A DNA stretch of 64,000 nt from Cannabis sativa (Eukaryota; Streptophyta; Magnoliopsida; Rosales; Cannabaceae), in assembly GCF_029168945.1 (NCBI RefSeq), contig NC_083605.1:20721280-20785279 (forward strand), written 5' to 3'. The position numbers and the translations under genes were made by a program. Within the stretch, counting starts at the first letter, position 1; each line of letters begins with the position of its first letter. Below the pieces are notes generated by a model. That model did no database searches. It had not been told where the DNA came from and was given only the letters and a program-made list of their open reading frames with translations. Shown here one piece after another: positions 1,570-30,500 of this stretch.

Positions 1570-3484
1570 TGTTGGAAATTATTTTACCAGGATCTTAGAT
1601 CTACTCACAAGTATGTTGTTTAACCACCCTAAATATGAACTTTCTAAAACGATAAATTAAACACATATAAAGTTAAGAAAACCTTACATTGATGCAGCGG
1701 AATTAATGTCTCCTTCCACTCAGATCTCTAACCCTTGAATCCTTTCTGTAGCAGAGTATAATCAAGATCTGAGCCCGAATGTCCTTCTTCTTCAAGTTTT
1801 GATCCTTCACAGTCTTCCAATCTATGATTGAGTTACTGCTTGCTGTGTGTGGGCACTTACTCTTTCACTAGGGTCGAAAAAGATGAAGGAGAAAAGAGAA
1901 TAGGGATTTCGGCCAGGTATAGAAAGTGGGGAAGGCTCAGTTTTTCTGAAGAGAGAAATTTCTGTCAGAAAGGCTTGTGAAAACTTGTGTTGAAAAACTT
2001 ATGATTTGACTGAGTCATCACTTTCTATTTATAGGCAACTACTAGGTTTAGGTTAGGAATTATTTGGCATTAAAATAATGAAAATATTAATTTGAAAAAC
2101 CTATTTAAGTGGCCGGCCATGGTGTGTTAATGGGCCTCACTTGATTTTGCAGTTTTATCAAATTTTATCTCTATTTTCTCAAAAACGCCAATTTTCCAAT
2201 TCTAACCTTTTAAATGCCAAAACTAATTATTTAATAACTAAAATAGATTATTAAATAATATTGTCATTTAATTTAATTATTAATTAGACATATAAAGTCC
2301 ATTAATAAATAAATAAACCTAGAAAACTCTTTTCTTTACAATTTCACCCCTGCTTAGTGAAAATTCATAAAATTAGACATAGTCTAACTTTAGAATTATA
2401 ATTGATCAATCACGAATCAATTAATGAGTCTTACAAGCAGAATGTTCTCAACTAGAATGGGGACCATGGATCTATATGCTGAGCTTCCAATAAGTGAACC
2501 AAATTTACCAAGTAAATTTCTACTTATTAATTCTTCGTTGAATCCACTCTTAGAACTTAGAATTGCACTCTCAGACTTATATAGAGCATATTGTATGTTC
2601 CACGATATCAATATACTATCTCATTTAACCATTGTTATAATCTTATTGTGATTTAAAGATCCTCTATATAGATGATCTACATCGAGATGGGATTTCTTTA
2701 CCGTTCTCACCCCTCAATGTATTTTGCCCCTTAAAACACTTAGCTACCTGTAAATGGTGTTTAGTGATCTAATAATTAGTCAGTTAAACAAGAGCTCATC
2801 CATTTACTTCTATTTGCTAAGCTCGAAGGGAATCATCACTTGACTTCTATACACCAGTAGAAGCTATAGATTCCATATTTATGTTCAGCACTCCCACTCA
2901 ATCATACTATCATGTTCCCAAAATATACGTATCACCCTGACCCAAAAGTAGGCTTAACTAATAAATCAAAGAACATGAATAGCACTCCTGAGTTGAGCCC
3001 AAGCATATCAGGATTTAGATTCTTTTAATCTTAAGATCAACTACTGATATTGACTTGGAAAGATATGTATAACGGTAAGTTTGTAATATATTAACTTAGT
3101 TGCAATATCGGTCCAGTCCAATGTATACTCCATACATTCGAAACTAGTATACTTTACTAATGTCCTAGAAAGAACATAACACTTACTCCAAGTGTAAGTA
3201 CACATCATCGCTGATTATCACATCAGTGTAAATCCAATAACACTGATGAAACAGGGACCAAAACTTTTGATTCATATGATCACAATCACATTCCACTGTG
3301 TTGACGATACTGTAATTGTGAATAAACATATGATCTAGATTTAACTGATTTTGTGTGTATGAATGTAATAAACATATTAAACCATTAGCATGTGAAATTC
3401 ATGCAAATATCAATCACTTCAAATTTTTTATATTGATAACTAATCAGATTGTAAAGAGTTTTATTTAGGGCATGAAACCCAACA
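1570..3484 (-). repeat. LTR (5' LTR of minus-strand element), family A
   Basis: On the minus strand this 1,915 bp block begins TGTTGGGTTTCATGCCC and ends TTCCAACA, with TG...CA termini. A TATA-like CTATAAATAG lies near 2030. It is homologous along its length to the solo LTR at 61235-63127, which lies in the opposite orientation, and the last bases of a third copy begin at 63980. A PBS-like sequence abuts its low-coordinate end, which makes it a 5' LTR. No coding capacity; small open frames here are incidental. Confidence 0.85.
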
Positions 3485-4735
3485 GATAGAAGTATCAACT
3501 TACATGAAATTTTTATTTAATCATTTATGACTAGCACACCACCACAAAATAAACAAAACAACACTTTAATATATGCACATAAAAGGGAAATGGGAAAAAA
3601 AAAACACTATGTATTAGACTAATCATGGTATTCTTTCCACCAAAAAACAAGATAATAATAATAATAAAAAAAAATAGTTGTATTCTTTCCACATTAGAAA
3701 GAGCATATAATGAACCCATACCCATTATTAAAGAACCAAGTATAGAGTATTGTTATTAGATATTAGTATCAATGGTGCTGTTTATTATTTTTTATAGGTA
3801 TCACTCTATAATTAGTTAGTAATATTTGTTAAAATTTATTTTTTCAAATTATATGAGACTCGTTATTTAATTATATCAATAGTGGTATACACTGAACAAA
3901 TACAAAACATAATACCTTTTTCGACTTTATCCTCCCTTTGAAATCTATAAATATATATATTTATGTATATGACTTTTTAGGAAGGTGCACATGCTCTCAT
4001 TTTAGGGTGTTATAAATGATAGAATTGGTATTCATAGTTCCAAGAAACAGCACATATACCAATAAAAAAACATTTAGATAAATAAGGCAAAAATAATAAA
4101 AAAAACCTAAATAATTAAGAAAAATATTAAAAAAATACCCATAATAATATTTAATATCAACTTTTTGATTACTTTTAGAGCCCGTTTAGTACACAGGATT
4201 GGACTGGATTGGACTGGACTGAACAAGATTGGATTATGATAAAAGTAATCCTGTGTTTGGTTTAAGAATAGACTGGACTATTTTATTTATTTTCTTTTAG
4301 AAAAAGAAAAACTTAAATTAAAATAAAAATAAATAATAATAAATTAAAATTAAAATATATAATAATAAATAAATAAAAATGAATAAATCACAACAAAAAA
4401 ATAAAAATAAAAATAATTAAATTATAAAATAAAATAAAAAAAAATATATCCTATATAATCCAGTATATATCATAAATATATAATAAAATTTTTATCATAT
4501 TTTTATTTAATAAATAAAATAGTAAAATAAAAAATACTTGAATAATATAAAATTGTTTATTTTAAACACTAATTTAATATAAATATTAATTTTTTTTTAA
4601 ATATTTATGGCTTACCTATGGTACTCTGGTTCCTCTCATTGGCAGTGGAGTAAGTCTTAGAGCATCTCTAATGATAATATTTTTTATAGGTGTAATATAT
4701 TTTTACATTATTTAAAAATATAATATCATATTTAA
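3485..4735. other. AT-rich intergenic DNA, no gene seen
   Basis: No supportable gene. Around 4178-4290 a sequence beginning GAGCCCGTTTAGT, with repeated GGATTGGACT, resembles the terminal part of a hAT/MITE-type repeat, but I could not find a matching far end or target duplication. Confidence 0.4.
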
Positions 4736-5098
4736 GTAATTTACATTATAAATACTTAAATTTAACTATTAGTTGTAAATAAATACCTAAGTTTAATTTT
4801 TGGCAGTAATAAAAACTAAGTTATAATTCTAAAACTCTATAAGTACCTAACCGTTAAATATTAAGTCATTATCATGTGTCATTTTCTTATTGGCATATTT
4901 AAATTATTTTTTTTACAATAAAAATTTTAAGATTTGGACCAATCCGGGATTGCCACGTGACAATTTACTTAACACTTAACAACCAAGTACCTACAGAAGT
5001 TCCAAAATTATAACTTAGGTATTATTACCGCCAAAAATTAAACTTAGGTATTTATTTACAACTGAGAGTTAAACTTAGGTATTTATACCGCAAATTAC
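4736..5098. mobile_element. Fold-back MITE with long terminal inverted repeats
   Basis: The first roughly 120 bp (GTAATTTACATTATAAATAC...) are an imperfect inverted copy of the last roughly 120 bp (...GTATTTATACCGCAAATTAC). Both arms contain the blocks TTGTAAATAAATACCTAAG and TTTTTGGC(A/G)GTAATAA. The short centre is non-coding. Flanks (TCATATTTA / TCATTTTAT) match only partly, so the target duplication and superfamily remain uncertain. Confidence 0.75.
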
Positions 5099-5332
5099 TC
5101 ATTTTATTTTATCTTTTTTTCACATTATTTTTTACACTCTTACTTCTAAAAATACTCCAATACTATAGCACATTTTTAAAAATGCTGTAATTATGATTTT
5201 ACACATTATTATATGTATAATTTTTTTCTTTATTAAACTATTATATATATTGCATCTTTTATTTTTTATTTTAAAAAATATAACATTAATGTCAGGTATC
5301 AATATAAATTTCAAGAATAATATTTTTTTTTA

Positions 5333-5632
5333 GGAATTATTTCTCAAATACACAAAAACAACAAAAAAAATTGCAAAAATACGGTTTCACGGAATTTTAA
5401 ACATTTTTATGATTTTTTTGATTTTATTTACAAAAGATACGGTCTTTTTATGTTGTACTCTTGTTACTTTGTTGTTGATGTTATTTGTATGTTATTTTTT
5501 GTTGTTGTTTTGATATTATTTTCATGTTACTTTTATATAGCTTTTTTTGTTATTTTCGTAAAAAAAATTATTAAAACGTAAAAATATAAATTTTTTTTAC
5601 AAAAAATAATGAATAGTACCTTATGCAATTAT
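5333..5632 (+). mobile_element. MITE family M, copy 1
   Basis: About 300 bp, closely similar to 48631-48960 and, inverted, to 15313-15615. Shared blocks include AAAAACAACAAAAAAAATT, CGGAATTTTAAACATTTTTA and TGTATGTTATTTTTTGTTGT. It starts GGAATTATTT and ends near TATGCAATTATC. The third copy has a clean 9 bp target duplication, so the family is probably MULE-derived. No coding capacity. Confidence 0.7.
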
Positions 5633-6051
5633 CTTTCTTTTTTATCTCCAATAGTATAGCATCCCTATATTTTGCCACCTAAACTTTTCTACCTTAATTA
5701 AATATTCTCTAAAATATTAGATGCTCTAATTATCCTTGAATACCCATATAATTTTTTTTTAGCGGCTGTCCCTCTTGTGTTCATGTGGGTCCACCAGTGC
5801 TACCACTTGCATGTGCTACTGTGAAGACAGATCGTCAAACAAACACCGAAGGTGATTGAAAAACTAATTCAAAGTTTGAACCTCAAAACTTTGACTCGTG
5901 ATCTCTCGCTAACAGTGGCAAATGAGGATGTACTGCTTGAGGGTTGAGATCACCAGCGGGTGGGGAGTCTAATGCTCTGGTCCGTGGGTTAGGAGGTGGT
6001 TGGAGTATGGTCGCCAATGGTGGTGGTGGTTTCTTGAGTGTTTGAAGAGAT

Positions 6052-18040: not shown

Positions 18041-18049
18041 TTACTAAAG

Positions 18050-18130
18050 GGAAATTTCACTATTTGCCCTTAATAATATACCCCATATCAAAATTTATAC
18101 CCTAAACTAATTTGTACAAATTAATGCCTA
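18050..18130 (+). repeat. MULE left terminal inverted repeat
   Basis: Pairs with 26990-27069. Identity is high over GGAAATTT(C/T)AC, CCATATCAAAATTTATACCC and TTAATTTGTACAAATT, with small indels. Confidence 0.9.
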
Positions 18131-18532
18131 TAATTTTAAAAGATACCCAAATTACCCTTTAATTAAAATTTCCCTCTAACAGTTTATCTCTCTTCCCCTT
18201 CGTCCTTTCCTCTCTCTTCCCACTTCGTCTTCCCCAACCCCCCACCTACCTCCGAGAAACCCAACCAGCGAGGCACCTCCATTGAAGGCGTTCCCGACCT
18301 CCATTCCCTCTCTCTCTCTCTCTTTCCACTTCGTCTTCCCCAACCTCCATTCCCTCTCTCTCGCCACAACGAAAGTCCGAGAACCCACTTCGTCTTCGTG
18401 TGCATCCAATCGACGAACCCATGAAGGAAACCCACAACCCAGTCGAGGACGACAAAACCCACGAAACAACCACCACAAAATCCAGTCGACACCCACCACC
18501 GTCCTCAATCGACGCCCACTTCAGTCAAAAAG

Positions 18533-19390
18533 GTACCATTTTTTTTAAAAAATAACAATTGATTTTAAATGTTCAATTTTGCTAGATTTTTGTGGATTAC
18601 TTGATTACTTGTGATTTATCTTTGCTCATGTACATTCTGTGGATTACTTTGATTCTGTGTATTATTTTTGGCGAAATTATATGTATGTACAGGGTTTATC
18701 GATGACTTATCGATAATTTATCGATATGATGTCGATGGACTTATCATTGACTGTTTTATGTGAACTTTTGACTCTGTGTTGTTAATGTATATCGATAGGA
18801 TGTCGTAGGGTATATCGATAGGATGTCGACCAAATAGTTTTGTTGCTTTTTGTGACCTGTAATGTCGACAATTTGTCGACAGTATATCGACATACAATGT
18901 CGATAATGAGTTGTTATAGCTAAGTTGATCATGTCGACAACATGTCGACCTTCTGTCGACACAATGTCGACAATGAGTTGTCCACATAGCCAAGTTGGGC
19001 ATGTCGGCGTCATGTCGGCGTCATGTTGACATAATGTCGACAATGTTTATTTGCTACAAATTATGATCCTTTTTCTTGGAATATCGATTACATGTCGACA
19101 GTATGTCGATATGTTGTCGAACAAATTGTGTTGTTGTTTGCTGTTTGATTATGTCGACGTCATGTCGACATGATGTCGACATTATGTCGACAATGTTGAT
19201 TTGCTACAAATTATGATACTTTTTCTTGGAATATCGATCACATGTCGACAATATGTCGATATGTTGTCGAACAAATTGTGTTTTTGTTTGCTGTTTTATT
19301 ATGTCGACAGAATATCGACATTATGTCGACTTGATGTCGACATAATCAAATTTTTTGACAGTAATATTTTTTTGGTTTTTGTTTTTTCAG
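18533..19390 (+). promoter_or_regulatory. Probable 5' UTR intron of the Ulp1 gene carrying left TCGA array
   Basis: A donor-like AAG|GTACCA lies at 18532/18533 and a polypyrimidine tract with TTTTTTCAG ends at 19390, directly before the ATG of the DUF1985-Ulp1 gene. Nine quadruplets of the TCGA palindrome fall inside. First-TCGA positions are 18699, 18792, 18865, 18934, 19004 (degenerate), 19084, 19154, 19234 and 19304. Within each quadruplet the spacing is 11 bp, apart from one 12 and one 13. The intron is inferred from the splice signals; a cDNA would settle it. Confidence 0.65.
18699..19341. repeat. Left array: nine phased TCGA-palindrome quadruplets
   Basis: Units look like ATGTCGACAT or TATCGATA. 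Exact 11 bp examples are TCGA at 18699/18710/18721/18732, 18934/18945/18956/18967, 19154/19165/19176/19187 and 19304/19315/19326/19337. Quadruplets are separated by 30-50 bp of unrelated spacer. The last part is a 150 bp tandem duplication (about 19048-19197 and 19198-19347) that copied two quadruplets. Confidence 0.95.
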
Positions 19391-22269
19391 ATGGCTCCCA
19401 GACTCATAATTCCAGCACCTGAGCATTTTACTGGACGCGTTACTTACAGAGGCACCAGAACTTTTGCAAAAATAAAGTCTCAGTTTGAGGAGTACAACTT
19501 GAATAACATGGCGAAGGAAAGCCGTTTCGGCAACTTTTGGAATGCCGTACCCTTGACATTCTCCTCGGTGTTATTTCACCAGCTTATGCTCCACAAAATG
19601 AAGGTAGATGGCCAGGAGGAGTTGAGGATGCGGTTTTACATTGGTCGGAAGGAGGTCAGATTCGGAGTGCTTGAGTTTGCACTCATTACAGGACTGGACT
19701 TCTCCTCGGGGCCAACAGTATAGGAGAAGGCTGCGCAGGTTGCTCGCTCAGGCTCAGACCGATTGATCAACAAATATTTCAACCGGTCTGGTAGTGTGAA
19801 GACAGAAGCACTCCAAGATAGGTCCACAAACTGTCAGAACCCGGAAGACATGTACAAGCTCAGCTTGTGCTTGTTTGTGGAGTCAGTGCTTCTGGGGCGC
19901 GAGGCTAACGCGCTGATTACTCCTGACATACTTAGATATGTCGAAGACCTCGAGTTCTTCTTCCGGATTTCTTGGGGGAAGCACTCATTTGCCAGACTCA
20001 TGCACTCGCTTCAAAAAGATATGTTGAAACAGAAGGCCAACTACGAGAAGAAGCTGAGTTCGGATGTTCAGCACGAGTGCAAATACACAGCATATGGCTT
20101 CGCACCTCCAGTACAATATTGGGCGTACGAGGCCATTTTGGAGGTAGGGAAGAGGTATGGCACGAATCACGGGATTCGGTTCCCCAGGATGCTTAGCTGG
20201 ACGAGCAAGGGTGATATTGGGAAGAAAGAAGTTAGCGCATTATTTTCTAGACGGGTATGAATTTCACTTATGTTCAGAGTTATTATTTAACATAAATCCT
20301 TGTAATAAATGCTAAATGGTTCTATTTTGATATTTTTTGAACCATAAACAGAATCTTGAAGTGGTGAAGGGGCTACTTCCACGGACAGAGGAGGAGGCAT
20401 TTGTGAGGACCATATCTTACGATGGTGTGGAGAACCTGGTTGATGATGGTGTGGATGACACAGAGGCTGAGGCAGGTAGTCAGGTACCAGAGACTCAGGT
20501 ACCAGACACTCAGAAAACAGACACTCAGGTACCAATTTTTGGATATTTGATTTTTTATTGTTTTTGTTCTGTGATATTTGTTACATTGTGGAATTATCGT
20601 ATGCTTACCGTATTTTTTTGGTATATATTTTTTCAGGCCACTGGTTCAGAACCTCAACCCAGTGCACCATCTTCATCAGGCGTTCGTGGTGCCGAGTACA
20701 CTGATTTAGTGGCGAGGTTGGATAGGATCGAGGCTGATACTCAGGGTCTGTATGTTGTTCATGTCGAGCTGAAGAAGGCATACGAGACCAGCCATGTAGA
20801 GCTGAAGGGTGGTCAGAACGTAATTATGGAGCAGCTCAGAGACATATTGGCCATGTTGAATCGTCCGCCAACGACAGCTTCAGCACCGGAGGCCCCAGCA
20901 GATCCATCTACCCCACCACCAGCTGCATCACCCCCAGTAGAAGAGGAGGAGGTCTTCCCTGACGGGTACGATCCTTATGAGGGAGCTCCAGCCACTCCCA
21001 TCGATACAGGTGTTATCCATGTACATGACACCGAGTCCCACGGTGAGATTCTGTCGATAGAGGCACAACCTGCAATGGTTAAGAGTCGGAAGAGGAAGAG
21101 AAATCCTCCTATATGGTTCGGTGACTACACGGAGATGAAGAGGAGACATAGGCCATCTTCGACGTTTGATCCCCTGGCGCCACCGGATGAGCAATTGTTA
21201 GTTACTTTCCGAAAGTGGTGTGTTGGACTCATTCCGAACCACCGACTTCGGGATTTGAGAAGTGGTGATTACGGTCCATCATTCTTTTGGAAGCTGCTGA
21301 CACCAAAGGAATGGCTTACAGATGACGTAAGTAAAGTATTTTATAATATTACTTCACTTTACAACTTTATGTGCAATTAATATATTTTTTTGTCTAACTG
21401 ACATTTCCCTTTATATGCAGCATATAGATGCAGCAATGCATATGCTGAGGAGCCGACGCACCGACTATCCACTGACATTTCCTCAGAAGGGTATCATTCT
21501 CTCCACATTCGTGACCACCATGATCAGCAGTGCATGGACGAACCACAGGGGTCCGAGGAGAAACTTTGTGTGGGAGGATTATATCCTGGAGTACTGCAAA
21601 GGGGTTCATAAGGTATTGTTTTAGTAAGATTTTAAATGTTGAACTATGATTATAACTTCGATTGTTAATTGTTTGGGAGGATTATTATGGTTTGTTAATT
21701 GTTTCGTTGTTCTCCGTAATTACAGAACCAGTTCTTTTCGAGATGGATGGGTAACGAGTATATTTACTTCATTCTGCATCTTCCCGAGGCAAGGCACTGG
21801 GTCACAGTTGAAGTTGACATAGAGCTGTGGAAAATTAATGTCTACGACTGTGATTCCAGCGTCTGTCATTGGACCGCCATGGAACCCGTCCTGAAGACTT
21901 GGGAAGAACTGCTGCCCTCGCTAATCCTTGAAACCGGGGAATTTCCACGTAACAACCAGATCATGGCGTTAACTAACAGGGACATCACGATGCTTCCAAA
22001 AATGCATTCGACTCGAGCCACTCACGACTTAGTTCCGAAGGCAACAACCAGGTACACAGCGATAAAAAAGTACTATAGTATTAAAATATGTTTTACGTTA
22101 GACTAACTTTACATTTTATTTTGCTTTTAGTGGTGATTGTGGCGTCTATTACATTGAGTATGTGGAGCATCTCATGATGCAACGTGGATTGACCGATGTG
22201 ACGCCAGGCCGGATAGTTATGTTTTGTGAACGGTGGTGTGTTGATTTATTTTACCAAAATGTAGGCTGA
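19391..22269 (+). pseudogene. MULE-borne DUF1985 + Ulp1 (C48) cysteine protease gene, VANC/Kaonashi-like
   Basis: Six exons with GT-AG borders are supported: 19391-20254, 20352-20528, 20637-21326, 21421-21612, 21726-22051 and 22131-22269. They sum to 2,388 nt (796 codons). An in-frame TAG at 19721-19723 interrupts exon 1; the frame on both sides is clearly coding. The N-terminal part (RTFAKIKSQFEEYNL; FYIGRKEVRFGVLEFALITG) matches plant DUF1985. The middle is Pro/Ser-rich and acidic with a basic KSRKRKR stretch, a possible nuclear signal. The C-terminus is a Ulp1/SENP-type peptidase with His in ARHWVTVEV, Asp in VYDCDSS and Cys in SGDCGVYYIEY, so the His-Asp-Cys triad is intact. Such proteins may remove SUMO-like tags; DUF1985 proteins of VANDAL MULEs act in anti-silencing. 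Function here is inferred, and the TAG suggests a broken or truncated product. Confidence 0.85.
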
Positions 22270-22529
22270 TTATATGTGTAATTATTGGGACATTGTATAT
22301 TTTGTGTAATTAACATTACAGTTATGTATATATAGACTTTCTCTTCGTTCAAATTTTGATAATTATTCGTGGTTTCAAATATAAAATATCGATATTATTC
22401 AACAAAAATAACTATTAAACCTAAAAATAATTAAAATATTAAAAAAATATTCAACCTCGACATTATTTTAAAGCAGTTTCGAACCTGAAATAGAAAACAT
22501 GTTATTACAACGAATAAGTACAGGACGCC

Positions 22530-25102
22530 TCAAATGCAGGCTTTGCATGTTGCTTTGTTGTGGCCTGAACTGCCACAACGGCTGCATTTTCGAGGTACAG
22601 AACCTTTTTTATCACCAGACGGGAAACGGTTCTCCCGTCTTCTTCCAGCGTTGCTTTTTCTTGGACGACCTACAGGCTTCTTTTCCACAGGTACCCCAAC
22701 TTTCATATTCTTGATGTGTTCTAGGAGAACCCAATCATCCTAGTCACCAGCAAGATTGATGGTATCATCGTAAATCTTCTTCCACGTTTCTTTTGAATAA
22801 TAAGGTGAGCAAAGCGTGTGCACACTTGTGTTCGTTTTCAATGTCGCAGCACATGCATGAAGGCAAGGGAGTTTCAATAACGTGAACACGCCGCAGGTGC
22901 ATGTTCTTTCAACTAGATTCACATCACCACCTCTTTCACCGTTAGGTCCTCTACCAACGTTATACAAATTGGCTCCATTTCGTTGGACGCGCCTGTACCT
23001 TGCATTTTCATGAATTTTTGCCAAGTTTTTTTCAAAGAGCGTGGCCAAAGGGGTGGTACATTTGTCAGCATTTTCGAGGCGATCAGCAAACCACGATTGC
23101 AGTGTGAACCTGATAAATTCAACCAAAGTAGTTATTGGATATTTCCTGAACTCTTCTGTGACACTATTGAAGCTTTCAGCAGCGTTGCTCGTCATGATGT
23201 TGTATCTATCGCCCAAACAATAAGGGTGAGCCCACTTCTCAAACCCTATACTCTCCACATATGCAGCAATGGCCGGATTCATCTTTCTAAGCTTCTCGAA
23301 CTCTCTATCAAATTCAGTCTTCGACCATGCGTAAGCAACATTATATATTTGGTTGTGAAAAGCATCAGTCTTGAATTTGGCGTTCACGTTCATAACAATG
23401 TGGTGATAGCATGCATAGTGGACTGCTTCGGGAAAAACGAGTTCAACAGCATGATCAATGCTTTGATGCCTATCTGACACAAACACTAAGTTCTCAACCA
23501 CGCCAATTGCTACCCTTAACTTCTGTAAGAAATACGTCCAGGAGTCGTTATTCTCACTGTCAACGATACCATAAGCAACCGGCAACAATTGGTTGTTTGC
23601 ATCGTATGCCACAACAACTAACATTATACTGCCGTACTTCGTCTTCAAGAAGGTGCCATCGATACTCAAAACAGGACGACAAAAAAAAAAGCCCCTTCTA
23701 CATGCACCGAGTGATATAAAACAGTACTTGAACCGCTCATCCTCTAAGTACAAGTCAGTAATGGTACCTGGATTCTTCTGTTCCAGCATGTACAAGTACC
23801 CAGGAAGCTTCATGTATGAAAACTCAGGCGTACCCCTAGCATACGTAAGTCCCATCTCCCTGCACCTCCACGCCTTCACATAACTCATCTGGATACCATA
23901 GTTGTCAAACATGTCCCTCTGTATGTCTTTAGCCTTGTACTTAGTTCCATCTTGGGTGTACTTCCCCTTAATAAGGTGGCCAACTACCCATGGTGCTGCT
24001 TGACGGTGATCTGAACGTCTCGCATTCAAGTTACATGTGTGTTCATTGTGAAATACAGTGACCTCAAAGTTGTCAGAATGCATCTTCTTCCTCCCCCTCA
24101 ATCTCCATTTACAATCTGGAGATTTGCATGTAATGTACAACACATCAGGGGATGACTTCTTCACCATCCACTCAAAATTGTTATTAAGTGCAAACCTACC
24201 CACTACTTGTCTCAGTTCTTCCTTGTTTTCATAACAATTACCAAGCTCTATCACCCTTGCTTCCTTACTTTGTAAACAAGTAGTTAGCTCATGATTTTCC
24301 ATTATATCTTCCTTTGTCCACATGGGAGCTTTGAACTTGGTACAAACTTCAAAAGAGGAGAACGTTGAGAAGGTTGCATGACGAGCATGTTCTTCAGTTC
24401 TGCCTTGTCGACTACTGCTAGTTCCAGGTGTAGTGCGATTTTCACTACGAGGTTGTCGTTCTCGCTGTGTACCTTGGTTACTCGGTACACACTCTAACCT
24501 CAACAAAGGTCCCGCTACGGCTTCATCGACTGTCAAATCATGTTCATCGTCCATATTCAAATCTACAATAGGATCGTTATTGTAGAAGGTTGTATCGAAC
24601 TCTTCAAACTGATGAAATCCTGTCGTTTCTTGTTCTTGCTCTACATTGGTCGAAACCTCTAAATTGGTCGGAACCTCCTCATTCACACCAATCCCAACAT
24701 CTGTTTCGGGAACGCAAGACCCTACCACACTCCGAGGGAAAGGATTAGTAGGCAGCGTAGGCTCCGAATTCCCAACTTTTCTCACCTTGGTCACGAATAA
24801 TGGCATAAACTCTGTATTTGACATTGTTGCCCTCATCTCTAAGAACGTTCTCAGTTGGCGTTCTCTCTTAATAACCTCTGGCGCAACCATTTGTCCCTTC
24901 ATGTACAAGGAACAAATCTCCAACTTTAAATCATACGCTACCGGATCAACTTCCAACTCTTCATATAAAATTTGTCGCAGTTCTTGTAAGGTTGTCTCAG
25001 TTGTAACTGTCAACGTCAAGCTGCTATTTGCTTTGTAAATCCAATTATAATTCTCACATAGCCAAACACCATCGTACGACACAACAAGGAACACTTTCTC
25101 TC
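22530..25102 (-). pseudogene. MuDR/MURA-type MULE transposase
   Basis: A long minus-strand exon begins after a splice acceptor (TTGCAATTGCAG, ending 25103). Upstream codons to 25274 only translate the TCGA array and are probably not coding. In order there are a PB1-like N-terminal region, the MuDR DNA-binding domain (CKSPDCKWRLRGRK ... HNEHTC), the MULE DDE domain (SIDGTFLKTKYGS; FVSDRHQSI; YACYHHIVMN) and a SWIM zinc finger (CTCGVFTLLKLPCLHA). An in-frame TAG lies at 22740-22742. The same frame continues to a TGA at 22530-22532 and encodes a GRPRK basic motif and a CX2CX4HX4C knuckle (CSRCGSSGHNKATC), the usual C-terminus of this family. The first exon and start codon were not identified. 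Product is the DDE transposase that would bind and cut the MULE ends. Confidence 0.88.
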
Positions 25103-25165
25103 CTGCAATTGCAAACCAAACAAACAAGGTGAGTAAAGGAAAAAACACAAAAAAAAAAAAATATA

Positions 25166-25647
25166 TCGACATCCCATCGATATCAATCGACATAATGTCG
25201 AAAACAACAACAGCAGAAAATATGACACTACTTATCGACATTTTGTCGACATAATATCGACATAACGTCGACAACTATACCAAGCAGGCTCCTCATCGAT
25301 ATATCATCGACACACCATCGACATCATATCGACATATTCTCCCAAAGGAATTTGCATGTCAGACGCGTACAATGGTAATAAATCCATTCCTATGTCGACA
25401 AACAATCGACATAGTATCGACATTCAATCGACAAACACACAGTGCATGCGTTTCATATTTTACGGTTACACATTTACTGTTAATAAATTTTACCTACGTT
25501 CCCAACTGCCACGTTGCATGTCAGACACGTGTCCTATCGATAAGCTATCGACATGACGTCGACATTGTATCGACAAATAAGTTAGTCGTGCCACTAAATT
25601 GGCATGTTGTCGACATCATATCGACATAGTATCGATATTCAGTCGAC
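25166..25647. repeat. Middle array: six phased TCGA-palindrome quadruplets
   Basis: First-TCGA positions are 25166 (spacing 11/10/11), 25235, 25296, 25395, 25537 and 25610, the rest spaced about 11 bp (for example 25235/25246/25257/25268). They lie between the 5' end of the minus-strand transposase and the plus-strand small-protein gene, where a divergent promoter would be. Spacers also repeat: GCATGTCAGAC(G/A)CGT occurs near 25354 and 25516. Confidence 0.95.
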
Positions 25648-25734
25648 AAATACACCATTTCATGCGTTTCACCTGTACAGTTACACATTTAATGACCATT
25701 AAATTTTCCTACATTCCCAACATGTATACTGCTC

Positions 25735-25742
25735 TATAAAAG
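25735..25742 (+). promoter_or_regulatory. TATA box of the MULE small-protein gene
   Basis: CTATAAAAG lies about 90 bp before the ATG at 25827, with no intervening ATG-initiated long frame. Spacing and context fit a plant core promoter. Confidence 0.55.
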
Positions 25743-25826
25743 CAAATCCCTTTCTTATTCATAGGTGCTCTTGTCTTCTACTTCTCTCTTACTCTAAAAA
25801 ATTTCTCTTATTATTAAGTTCTAAAT

Positions 25827-26183
25827 ATGGCGCCAAGAAAGAACAAGGGCAAATTCCCAATCTTAACTCCTGAAGAGCTGAAGCAGGAGGATGATGGCAT
25901 CATTACTCCTGAAATGCAGAAAGTTTTTGACGCCGATAGAGCTTTCGAAAGAGAACGATGTGGGAACGAGTTCAGGTTCAGGCAACTTGAAGCACATTTT
26001 TGCAAAACTGATATATCGCCGGCTCCACCACCAGGGTTCCCCGAAGGATGCCGTCGTTGCAAACTAGGCATCTTTAACGGTAAACCGGTGAAGCCTGGAA
26101 CATTATGCAAGTATTGCAAGGCTCACCCACAAGCCAAAGAATTTTTTTTAAAAAATAATTTGTTATGTTATGGCTTGTGGTGA
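25827..26183 (+). CDS. Small MULE accessory protein with CX2C...CX2C motif
   Basis: A 118-residue frame starts MAPRKNKGKF and is highly charged over its first half (LTPEELKQEDDG; DADRAFERERCG). It then has CRRC, a 15-residue Gly/Pro/Lys-rich loop and CKYC, arranged like a zinc ribbon, followed by a hydrophobic C-terminus. I do not recognise the family. Its own TATA box and its place between two TCGA arrays mark it as a real MULE gene. A GTGAGT at 26181 overlaps the stop codon and could be a splice donor, so a longer spliced product is possible. It may correspond in position to the accessory gene of VANDAL elements, but no homology was established. Confidence 0.7.
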   Translation: MAPRKNKGKFPILTPEELKQEDDGIITPEMQKVFDADRAFERERCGNEFRFRQLEAHFCKTDISPAPPPGFPEGCRRCKLGIFNGKPVKPGTLCKYCKAHPQAKEFFLKNNLLCYGLW

Positions 26184-26315
26184 GTTTTATTTAATGTTTG
26201 TTTTTTTTTTTATGAACTTTATTTTCTGTTTTTTTTTAATGTTTTTTATGTTATGTTTTAATGTTATTTTATGTTATGTTATTTTATGTTTTATTTATGG
26301 CTTTTTTCATTTTCA

Positions 26316-26549
26316 TCGATATAATGTCGACATGGTGTCGACAAAATATCGACAATTTCTAAACAAAAGATGAATGTTTTTTGTCGACATGCTATCGAAA
26401 AAATGTCGACAACTTGTAAGTAATATGTTGATTGTTTAATGTCGACATGCTATCGACATACTGTCGACATCACGTCGATAATGATCATCACTGACCTTTC
26501 CTCGTGCAATTATCGACAAACCATCGATAAGTTATCGATATATCATCGA
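26316..26549. repeat. Right array: four phased TCGA-palindrome quadruplets
   Basis: TCGA at 26316/26327/26338/26349, 26384/26395/26406 (fourth unit lost), 26442/26453/26464/26475 and 26513/26524/26535/26546. Spacing is 11 bp throughout. The array lies between the small-protein gene and the right MULE end. Confidence 0.95.
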
Positions 26550-26989
26550 TAACAACTGGAAAACCAGCATTTCGATCGAAAACCGTATCCGCCGCATCTC
26601 AACAATTTCAGACCAAAAAACAGCAGTTCCAACAAATACGACACATATAACAATTTTAAACTACATAAAGTCTAACAAAATGCTTAAAACACAACTTACC
26701 CATTATAATGGTGTAAGATTCTTGAGTGATATTGGGTTGTGCTTCGGTTTTCCACCAACACCCACCGAGAAACAACCATTCAAGAGGGAAGAGAGAGAGG
26801 GACGAGAGAGTGGGACGGACGAGAATTGAATAAAATTTTTTGAGAAGTTTTTTCAGTTTTTTTCTAGAGAAAGAGAGTGGTGCACGAGAGAGAGGGAAGA
26901 GAGAGAGAGAGAAAGACCAATTTCAGGTTTTATGAATTTTATTTTATTTTTTTTAAAAAAAGGGTAAAATGGGAAGTTCATGTAATCAA

Positions 26990-27069
26990 TGGACTAAATT
27001 TGTACAAATTAAGGGAGGGTATAAATTTTGATATGGCTTGTATTATTAAGGCCAAAAAGTAAAATTTCC
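26990..27069 (-). repeat. MULE right terminal inverted repeat
   Basis: Inverted partner of 18050-18130. The adjacent inner sequence (26780-26930) is rich in GAGAGA and mirrors the CTCTCTTCCC-rich sequence inside the left end. Confidence 0.9.
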
Positions 27070-27078
27070 TTACTAAAT

Positions 27079-27573: not shown

Positions 27574-30500
27574 TTAATTTGTCTTTCCCAAGTTCTGAAC
27601 TTCATTTAGAGAGCAAATTCCAAGCATACTTCTAAGCTTTAGAAACGCCATAAGCTTTAGAGGCTTAGTCATAATATCTGCAATTTAATCTTCACTCCTG
27701 CAAAACACCAAGTCAATAACTCCTTCTTTGCATAAATCACATAGGAAATGATACCCCACTTCAATGTGTTTGCTTTTTCCATGTAAGACAGGATTTTTTT
27801 GAGAGTTTTATTGCTGAGAAATTATCACAGTGAATTACAGTAGGACCATGTTGTTGATAGTCTAACATTTCAAGCAATCTTCTCAACCAAATTGCTTGAC
27901 ATGAAGTTGATGCTGCTGCAACAAACTCAGCTTCTGTGGTTGACAGAGTTACAATTTGTTGCTTCTTAGATGACCATGTAATAGCTCCTGAATTCAACAT
28001 AAATACTGCTCCGGATGTGCTCTTTCTATAATCAGGATTTCCAGCATAATCACTATCTGAAAACCCAATTAAACTTGATTTTTCACCACTTTTGTACAGA
28101 ATTCCAAAATCTACAGTACCTTTTAAATACCGTAAAATTCTTTTTGCAGCTAAGAGGTGAACTTCGATTGGATTCTCCATATATCTGTTTACTAAATTGA
28201 CAGCATGCATAATATCTGGTCTTGTAGCTGTCAAATACATCAAACTTCCAATTATTTGCTTGTACATTGTGGTGTTTACTTTCTTTCCTACACCATTCTT
28301 TGAAAGTTTCAGACTAACTTCACTTGGGGTGGTGACTGGATTACACTCCTTCATTTTGAACCTGTCTAAGATTTTTGAAGCATATTTCTTTTGAGAAATG
28401 AATATGCCAATAGATAATTGCACAACTTCAATGCCAAGAAAATAGTGCATCACCAAATCTGTCATATCAAATTCTTTCATCATAGACAACTTAAATTCAT
28501 CAAGCAGAGTTTTATCATTGCTAGTACAAATGAGATCATCAACATATAAACACACAATCAAAATTTTCTTGTTCAGACCATATTTAATGTAAAGAGTGTG
28601 TTCATATGGATATTTGATAAAACTATTTTTAAGGAAATAAGCAGCTACACGACTGTACCAAGATCTTGGTGCTTGTTTCAGTCCATATAGTGCTTTATTT
28701 AACTTATATACCTGATCTTCACTACCTTGCTTCACATATCCAAGTGGTTGGTCGACATAAACTTCTTCTTCCAATTGTCCTTGCAAGAATGCTGACTTCA
28801 CATCCAATTGATATATAGGCCATGAGTTTTGGGCATCAATGGATAACACCAACCGAATAGTATCAATCTTTGCAACTGGAGCAAACACCTCTTTGTAATC
28901 CACACCAAATTCTTGTTGTATCCCAATGCAAGAAGCCGCGCCTTATACTTATCAACTCCACCGTCTTTGTTCAACTTTGTCTTATAAACCCATTTAACAC
29001 CAATGAATTTATGCTCTTTTGGAAGTTTGACCAACTCCCACGTATTATTTTTCTCTATTGACTCAATTTCTTCATTCATTGCATGTTTCCACTTTGAGTC
29101 TTTGACAGCTTCTTCGAATGAAATTGGATCACAACCTGACAAAAGAGCATAATGGGCAATTGAATCAATTGAATCAATATTTTCAGATGGGATACCTGTG
29201 ACCTCAAAGTCTTCCATCTATGCGGGTCTCCTCCGAACACGACGAGAACTTGAAACAACCTCTTCATATGTGTTTTCTGCTGCCATTGGTGTATTTTCAG
29301 AAGCTGTAGTAGCTCCATTTGGTGGACATTCGGATGTATTAGCTGTCAGATTTTGTCTTTGCAGAGATTGTTGCTTTTCTTCTTCATCATAGATATCAAA
29401 AATAAGTTGAGTAGGCTGCTGCTCATTCCAATTCCAGGTGCTTTCTTCATCAAAAATGACATCTCTACTTATCAAGATCATCTTTGTGAGTGGATTGACC
29501 AATTTATAAGCCTTGGAAGTTTCACTTATTCCAAGAAAGACACATTTTTTACCCTTATCATCAAGCTTCTTCCTTTTCTCATCTGGAACATGTGCGTAAG
29601 ATATGCATCCAAAAATTCTGAAATGATCTACCGTTGGTTTACGCCCACTCCAAGCTTCTTCTGGTGTTAAGTTTTGAACAAAGATGGTGGGACTTCTATT
29701 CAACACATGAACACTCCAATTTACCGCTTCTGGCCAAAAACTCTTTAAAACTCTTCCATTTGTTAGCATGCTTCTCACCATGTTAAGAATTGTTCGATTC
29801 TTCCTTTCAGATACACCGTTTTTCTGAGGTGTATAGGCAGTTGTTAATTCTCTTCGTATTCCTTGATCATCAATATTCTCCACCACGATCGGTACGAAGA
29901 GTTTTGATGGTATTTTCTGCTTCCTTTTCAACATGAGCCTTGAAGCTTTTAAATGTAATAAAAGCTTCTAATTTTTCCTGTAAAAAATAGACCCAAGTTT
30001 TTCTAGTATAATCATCATTGAAGGTAATGAAGTATCGTTGACCTCCATTAGAAGTTGAATTTATTGGTCCACAAATGTCTGAGTGAACCAACTCCAAAAC
30101 TTTTTTCGCTCTCCATGACTTCCCTTGTAGAAATGGCTGCCGATGTTGCTTGCCAATAATGCACTCCTCACATACATTGTTAGTAGGAATAATTTGAGGA
30201 AGATCAATTACCATGCTTTTTTGATATAGAGTTTTTAAATCATTAAAATTTAAATGACCATACCAAAAATGCCAAAGCCATGTTGGATCGCTAACTTTGG
30301 CCATGTGACAAGCGTGGACTGTATTGATTTTCAAAGGAAAGAGTCTATTATGGGCCATTTTTGATTGAGCAACATGACCCCTTTTTGGATCAAATATCTC
30401 ACAAGGACCATTTTTTATGGTAACTTCATATCCCTTTCCTTGAAGCTGTCCAAGACTTAGCAAATTACTTTTAAGATCAGGAACATAAAACACATTAGAC

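Follow-up and report, generated by a model that had tools for sequence, protein, structure and literature searches.

The 64,000-nucleotide stretch of the Cannabis sativa genome analysed here (contig NC_083605.1, positions 20,721,280 to 20,785,279; hereafter the window) contains a complete Mutator-like element (MULE) at 18049-27069, the predicted non-coding parts of which carry groups of four TCGA-centred units repeated every 11 bp. We consider it probable, at roughly 0.75, that these tetrads are the cis-acting targets of the DUF1985-Ulp1 protein encoded by the element, which would be a sequence-specific anti-silencing factor of the VANC type. The proposal is based on the homology of the predicted protein to VANC21 of Arabidopsis, a predicted non-coding placement of the motifs like that in the VANC21 system, the conservation of the core and spacing, a layout common to three clades, and the retention of tetrads in a non-autonomous element.

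The 19 tetrads form left (nine groups, 18699-19337), middle (six, 25166-25643), and right (four, 26316-26546) clusters, as counted in the original prediction, the example coordinates of which are correct. The steps are exactly 11-11-11 in 14 of the 19 groups. Groups 18865 (11,11,13) and 25166 (11,10,11) have four intact TCGA despite one odd step, and at least one unit has disappeared from each of groups 18792, 19004, and 26384. According to the predicted gene models, the short motifs are dense in the non-coding parts of the element. The left cluster is located inside a predicted intron in the 5'-untranslated region of the DUF1985 gene, for which an acceptor, ttgttttttcag, is seen immediately 5' of the ATG at 19391. 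The middle cluster is positioned between the divergent transposase and a third open reading frame (ORF). The open frame of the transposase extends at its far 5' end over tetrads 25166 and 25235; this region is probably intron or leader, and an acceptor-like site, TTTGCAATTGCAG, is found within the frame near 25102.

The 14 exact groups comprise 56 units with the consensus (W)TRTCGAYA(W), and a purine directly precedes TCGA in every one of them. The original prediction described a palindromic decamer, which is true of the consensus but not of single units: 35 of the hexamers, 22 of the octamers, and only 6 of the decamers are perfect palindromes. The information content climbs from three bases 5' of unit 1 and drops three bases 3' of unit 4. 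Dinucleotide shuffling of the three non-coding segments produced a tetrad group in 0 of 1000 trials, and random placement of the 71 TCGA of these segments gave on average 0.13 groups (maximum 2 in 2000 trials), compared with the 15 observed at 11 plus or minus 1 bp. Among four-letter words with at least three different letters, tried at spacings of 8-16 bp, only TCGA (14) and the overlapping CGAC (5) reached three or more chains, in both cases at 11 bp.

The pattern CGA-N7-TCGA-N7-TCGA-N7-TCG (35 positions, with the T of the first core and the A of the last left free) occurs at 3045 places in the 770.7-Mb assembly, and the reversed control at one. At 10-bp spacing the pattern occurs at three places, fewer than the 11 of its reversed control. 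This genome scan, a check named beforehand, qualifies the claim that the tetrads are confined to one MULE. The claim holds within the window, where no tetrad was found outside the element even when steps of 11 plus or minus 2 bp were allowed, but not in the genome.

Besides the window, eleven stretches of contig C1 with the pattern were inspected, each 9.9 kb long. Ten contain, anywhere within the stretch, a terminal inverted repeat (TIR) related to that of the window element (best E 1e-59 to 9e-7); L026 has no TIR match at E 1e-5. Its TCGA clusters (3320-5016) are decayed and perhaps belong to an old or different family. Three relatives (L018, L019, L021) carry all three genes of the element at least partly, L020 has a more distant DUF1985 gene, and none of the three element proteins was matched within the fetched 9.9 kb of L016, L017, L022, L023, and L024. 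Both TIRs and the flanking duplication TATTGGAA are present in the L025 element (4376-6024), which lacks any frame longer than 117 amino acids. This element is non-autonomous and has kept, without the genes, eight tetrad groups, six of four units and two of three.

In the window element and ten of these loci (L026 left out), TCGA at steps of 10-12 bp occurs as 280 single units, 25 pairs, 19 triples, and 72 chains of four; no chain of five is present, and the step is 11 bp in 251 of the 254 cases in chains of three or more. The slots before and after the tetrad each contain TCGA in 0 of 69 distinct tetrads, and each is within one mismatch of it in 5 of 69, about the number expected by chance. 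In eight sets an inner unit is missing, and in four of them the slot reads TCAA or TTGA, which is what cytosine deamination would leave.

The window element was aligned with its three relatives. The left cluster, in which units of 70-150 bp are duplicated, could not be aligned between copies, and conservation was therefore evaluated from the middle and right clusters only. The main test included the seven tetrads that are exact in the window, in four copies (25166, 25395, and 26384 were dropped). In pairs among the three relatives, which exclude the window copy, the TCGA core differs at 2/336 positions and the rest of the tetrad at 83/633 (Fisher 4e-14). Because the deamination-insensitive T and A of the core differ at 0/168 positions in the same pairs, the constancy of the core is not merely an absence of deamination. 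The relatives read TCGA in 83 of 84 units. Between the window and each relative, the 11-bp step is kept in 62 of 63 cases, compared with 76 of 91 eleven-base blocks between tetrads (Fisher 0.0024).

A wider comparison, with eight tetrads and the window pairs included (25395 and 26384 dropped), gave differences at 15/768 core positions, 225/1455 other tetrad positions, and 293/2604 positions between tetrads; non-core tetrad positions thus change more than the spacers do. The proportion of CpG sites that differ is 19/212 in tetrads, 19/66 in other non-coding DNA of the clusters, 94/401 in the transposase, and 33/67 near the right end. In the family alignment, the steps and the TCGA core thus stay constant as the adjoining bases vary, which supports this part of the original prediction. 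The prediction argued from the spacing for selection on geometry and against simple tandem duplication, but duplication does act at a higher level, as in the doubled two-tetrad unit of the left cluster (Table 1).

The DUF1985-Ulp1 gene has predicted exons at 19391-20254, 20352-20528, 20637-21326, 21421-21612, 21726-22051, and 22131-22269, and all five predicted introns have GT-AG borders. With its one in-frame stop codon read as X, the protein matches PF09331 (E 9.8e-18) and PF02902 (E 1.7e-15). As in KIU-type VANC proteins, the Ulp1 (C48) domain is C-terminal, and the sequence HW...D...SGDCGV can be recognized in the exons. All seven protein matches of the gene come from Cannabis sativa, and DUF1985 relatives are also present in Humulus (P0023, P0027). 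Both in sequence and in its predicted fold, the protein is homologous to VANC21, which strongly strengthens the case for the DUF1985-Ulp1 protein as the reader of the tetrads.

VANC21 of VANDAL21 (Hi) and VANC6 of VANDAL6 are anti-silencing systems of Arabidopsis (PMC5735166, PMC10398659), and arrays of short motifs in the non-coding DNA of DUF1985-bearing MULEs are already known as VANC targets (PMC5735166). As described in the cited sections, these systems resemble the window element in combining a transposase and a DUF1985 protein within a MULE and in having short motifs dense in non-coding DNA, among other places within the DUF1985 intron and 5' of the transposase gene (PMC5735166). As in the hemp clades described below, the motif differs by family, and as in the window element, motif-bearing units are tandemly duplicated. 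The motifs themselves differ, YAGTATTAY or AGTTGT(C/A)C compared with TRTCGAYA, and the grouping of four units at one-turn steps belongs to the window element, none being described in those sections. The KIU/Kaonashi MULEs, as presented in the cited passages, are represented by VANDALs whose VANC genes bear a Ulp1 domain. Similar Ulp1 MULEs are given for grapevine, melon, and rice, and sequence-specific hypomethylation of related elements is reported for Arabidopsis (PMC13317346). They share with the window element a gene with a C-terminal Ulp1 domain; in those passages they are non-TIR MULEs and phased tetrads are unmentioned, whereas the window element has both TIRs and tetrads.

None of the titles and abstracts listed by searches of the open PMC literature, the only literature covered, describes four-unit phased VANC targets. 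The original prediction, which knew of no description of this exact arrangement, is corrected in so far as VANC target arrays are known. Phased multi-site operators, in which several sites on one face of the DNA are bound cooperatively, are known; the platform of the window type differs from them in having nearly always four sites and in being repeated many times per element. A 2022 paper in EMBO J on eudicot VANC systems may already describe part of the tetrad finding.

The lettering of the units changes with the DUF1985 clade, from TRTCGAYA in the window clade (A) to TTNGCGAYAT in clade B and TRTGCGATKT in clade C. Clade B (P0016/P0019) is 45-48% identical to the window clade, and up to five TTNGCGAYAT groups are located directly upstream of its DUF1985 domain; 12 stretches contain 44 chains of four, 15 of three, and none longer. 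The first clade B locus met, L031, has the same arrangement. Clade C (P0018/P0020/P0022) is 42-50% identical to the window clade and 52% to clade B. In 11 of its listed copies, TRTGCGATKT chains in the 620 bp 5' of the ATG number 48 with four units, 13 with three, four with two, and one with five; one of the chains of three, 617 bp upstream of the ATG in L057, resembles leader sequence and not a unit. Outside this count, the whole stretches L054-L056 have one CGA chain of five or more each. CGA is preceded by T in all 66 window units, and by G in 185 of 221 units of clade B and 223 of 233 of clade C.

The opposite strand of the clade B and C stretches has no chain of three or more, and their units are therefore directional; TCGA tetrads were not found in these stretches. 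The palindrome is not essential, since the sister clades build the same four-step layout from directional GCGA units. Single steps in clades B and C range from 10 to 12 bp. Nevertheless, 30 of the 38 distinct tetrads of clade C span 32 bp in total, compared with 15.4 expected if steps were independent (0/5000 shuffles), as do 12 of the 25 of clade B, compared with 5.2 expected (3/5000 shuffles); the clade B spans form two heaps (32 bp, 12; 33 bp, 3; 34 bp, 10). The copies within each clade are closely related and the counts are not independent, but with this reservation the number of units and their overall phase seem to be held more tightly than the letters or single steps. AGCGA reversed is AGCGA, which makes the reversed control void, and the distance to DUF1985 matches was used instead; 41 of the 150 listed places were entered, and the resulting 30/46 is hence a lower bound.

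The tetrads are unlikely to be binding sites of the MULE transposase, serving as subterminal or enhancer sites for transposition. Their retention with the TIRs in the non-autonomous element is what would be expected of mobility sites required in trans. However, they lie outside the TIRs, starting 650 bp from the left end and ending 520 bp from the right end, and the middle cluster is approximately 1.4-1.9 kb inside the right end. Furthermore, the lettering varies by DUF1985 clade just 5' of the DUF1985 gene, where a role in end cutting is not obvious.

It is somewhat less probable still that a host protein, such as a transcription factor, an insulator, or a nucleosome-excluding protein, binds the tetrads as promoters or boundaries of the element genes. 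The clusters adjoin gene starts, and TATCGATA resembles the DRE/BEAF site of the fly. Nevertheless, the exchange of letters between three related families that keep the layout fits a reader encoded by the element better than a fixed host protein, and the related TIRs in ten of the eleven fetched tetrad stretches also speak against a host factor. Neutral expansion of an 11-bp minisatellite, to which the 11-bp arrays reported by Tandem Repeats Finder for some groups and the duplicated 150-bp unit could point, is very improbable and was rejected, because the repeats end at four time after time, the core is constant, clade C keeps its span while single steps vary (in related copies), and the pattern prefers 11-bp over 10-bp steps.

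Several observations weigh against the tetrads being VANC-type targets. The in-frame TAG of the window DUF1985 domain (19721-19723) implies that this copy would rely on others, and stop-free copies are present in the DUF1985 set of the genome. Every unit in the window contains a CpG, whereas the VANC21 and VANC6 motifs in the published sections do not, and words for palindromes or spacing (palindrom-, spacing) are absent from the text of Hosaka (PMC5735166). The element has TIR ends, in contrast to the non-TIR ends given for Arabidopsis VANDALs in the cited passage (PMC13317346). The conservation was measured on seven tetrads in four copies. Finally, nine distant DUF1985 groups, represented by one locus each (L027-L030, L032-L036) and about 23-32% identical in the rows shown, have no such tetrads in approximately 3 kb upstream. 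Overall, the observation behind the original prediction is confirmed and its interpretation is partly supported.

The nine distant loci lead us to reject, as far as sampled, the tetrads as a universal DUF1985 feature. Other repeats are present near these genes. Upstream of the gene in L034 (2387-2732), there are a chain of four and a chain of three AGTT at 11 bp, which could be chance or another phased lettering. A different array lies 5' of the gene in L028 (1414-2540), where repeats of approximately 90 bp contain CGACC pairs with a 10-bp spacing and, facing them, pairs of GGTC. The introns of L027, L035, and L036 are rich in GTTGTT (17, 17, and 19 copies within approximately 1.5 kb before the DUF1985 match), which vaguely recalls the VANC6 motif AGTTGT(C/A)C.

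The features of the element are listed in Table 1. It belongs to the MULEs by its PF10551 transposase (E 2.7e-25), its TIRs, and the identical 8-bp duplication TTACTAAA at either end, and these ends separate it from the VANDALs, which are defined by non-TIR ends. On the minus strand, the sequence past the end of the transposase frame (22485-22742) reads on, by eye, as a stretch resembling a CCHC zinc knuckle, CSRCGSSGHNKATC, so that a stop or an intron may interrupt the C-terminus of the transposase. The Pfam search with the 118-residue protein of the third ORF gave no match; by eye, the end of the annotated protein P0003, after its DUF1985-Ulp1 part, resembles it. The third ORF is followed, ahead of the right cluster, by T-rich short repeats (TTATG/TTTTATG) at 26185-26300. 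Just outside the right end of the MULE, a long minus-strand frame (27761-28942) resembles by eye a Copia-type reverse transcriptase with RNase H.

Table 1 Features of the MULE and its flanks, in window positions
Feature	Position	Strand	Details
Left target-site duplication	18041..18048	.	TTACTAAA; identical 8 bp at 27070-27077
Left TIR	18049..18168	+	GGGAAATTTCAC...; 119-nt arms, 77% complementary
Left cluster	18699..19340	+	nine tetrads starting 18699, 18792, 18865, 18934, 19004, 19084, 19154, 19234, 19304
Two tandem 150-bp units	19001..19300	+	19001-19150/19151-19300; 92% alike, two tetrads each
VANC-like DUF1985-Ulp1 gene	19391..22269	+	predicted exons; PF09331, PF02902
MULE transposase open frame	22740..25274	-	PF10551, PF00872, PF03108, PF04434 SWIM
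Middle cluster	25166..25646	+	six tetrads starting 25166, 25235, 25296, 25395, 25537, 25610
Third ORF	25827..26183	+	118 aa, two CxxC pairs; 5 database matches, 4 from Cannabis
Right cluster	26316..26549	+	tetrads starting 26316, 26384 (three intact units), 26442, 26513
Right TIR	26951..27069	-	pairs with left arm
Right target-site duplication	27070..27077	.	TTACTAAA; copy of left 8 bp

If the tetrads are the targets of the DUF1985-Ulp1 protein, four copies of it (or two dimers) would dock abreast on one face of the DNA, with one copy for each helical turn over approximately 43 bp. The steps of the platform would be 11 bp each and total 33 bp in the window clade, and would mostly total 32 bp in clade C. 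At 10.5 bp per turn, an 11-bp step drifts by approximately 17°, which places the four sites within approximately 51°. Many platforms per element would provide the avidity that restricts the action to family members. Docking would locally remove or block methylation and so enable the expression of the transposase and VANC genes. The CpG in every site of the window clade may bring docking into direct competition with the maintenance of CG methylation. The least certain step is a possible action of the Ulp1 domain on silencing proteins linked to SUMO.

A more tentative possibility, which we regard as somewhat short of an even chance, is a four-subunit VANC assembly on a fixed four-site platform along one face of the helix. 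What is conserved as a code would then be the geometry of four units over approximately three turns, and the letters would serve as an address that changes fast and evolves together with DUF1985. In the window clade, where the CpG of every site lies in a near-palindrome, CG methylation could lower binding, so that each platform would be a two-state switch, silenced or anti-silenced. The cited passage counts it as one of the most enigmatic points about the system that a VANC protein is so specific in recognizing long targets and nevertheless could switch to others (PMC5735166). One hemp genome offers a natural experiment on this question, with three related proteins, one layout, and three letterings at thousands of places. 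The four-site stoichiometry, helical phasing, and methylation sensitivity become directly testable, and the layout is a possible design rule for sequence-specific epigenome editing. The finding would extend VANC-like systems to the TIR-bearing MULEs of hemp.

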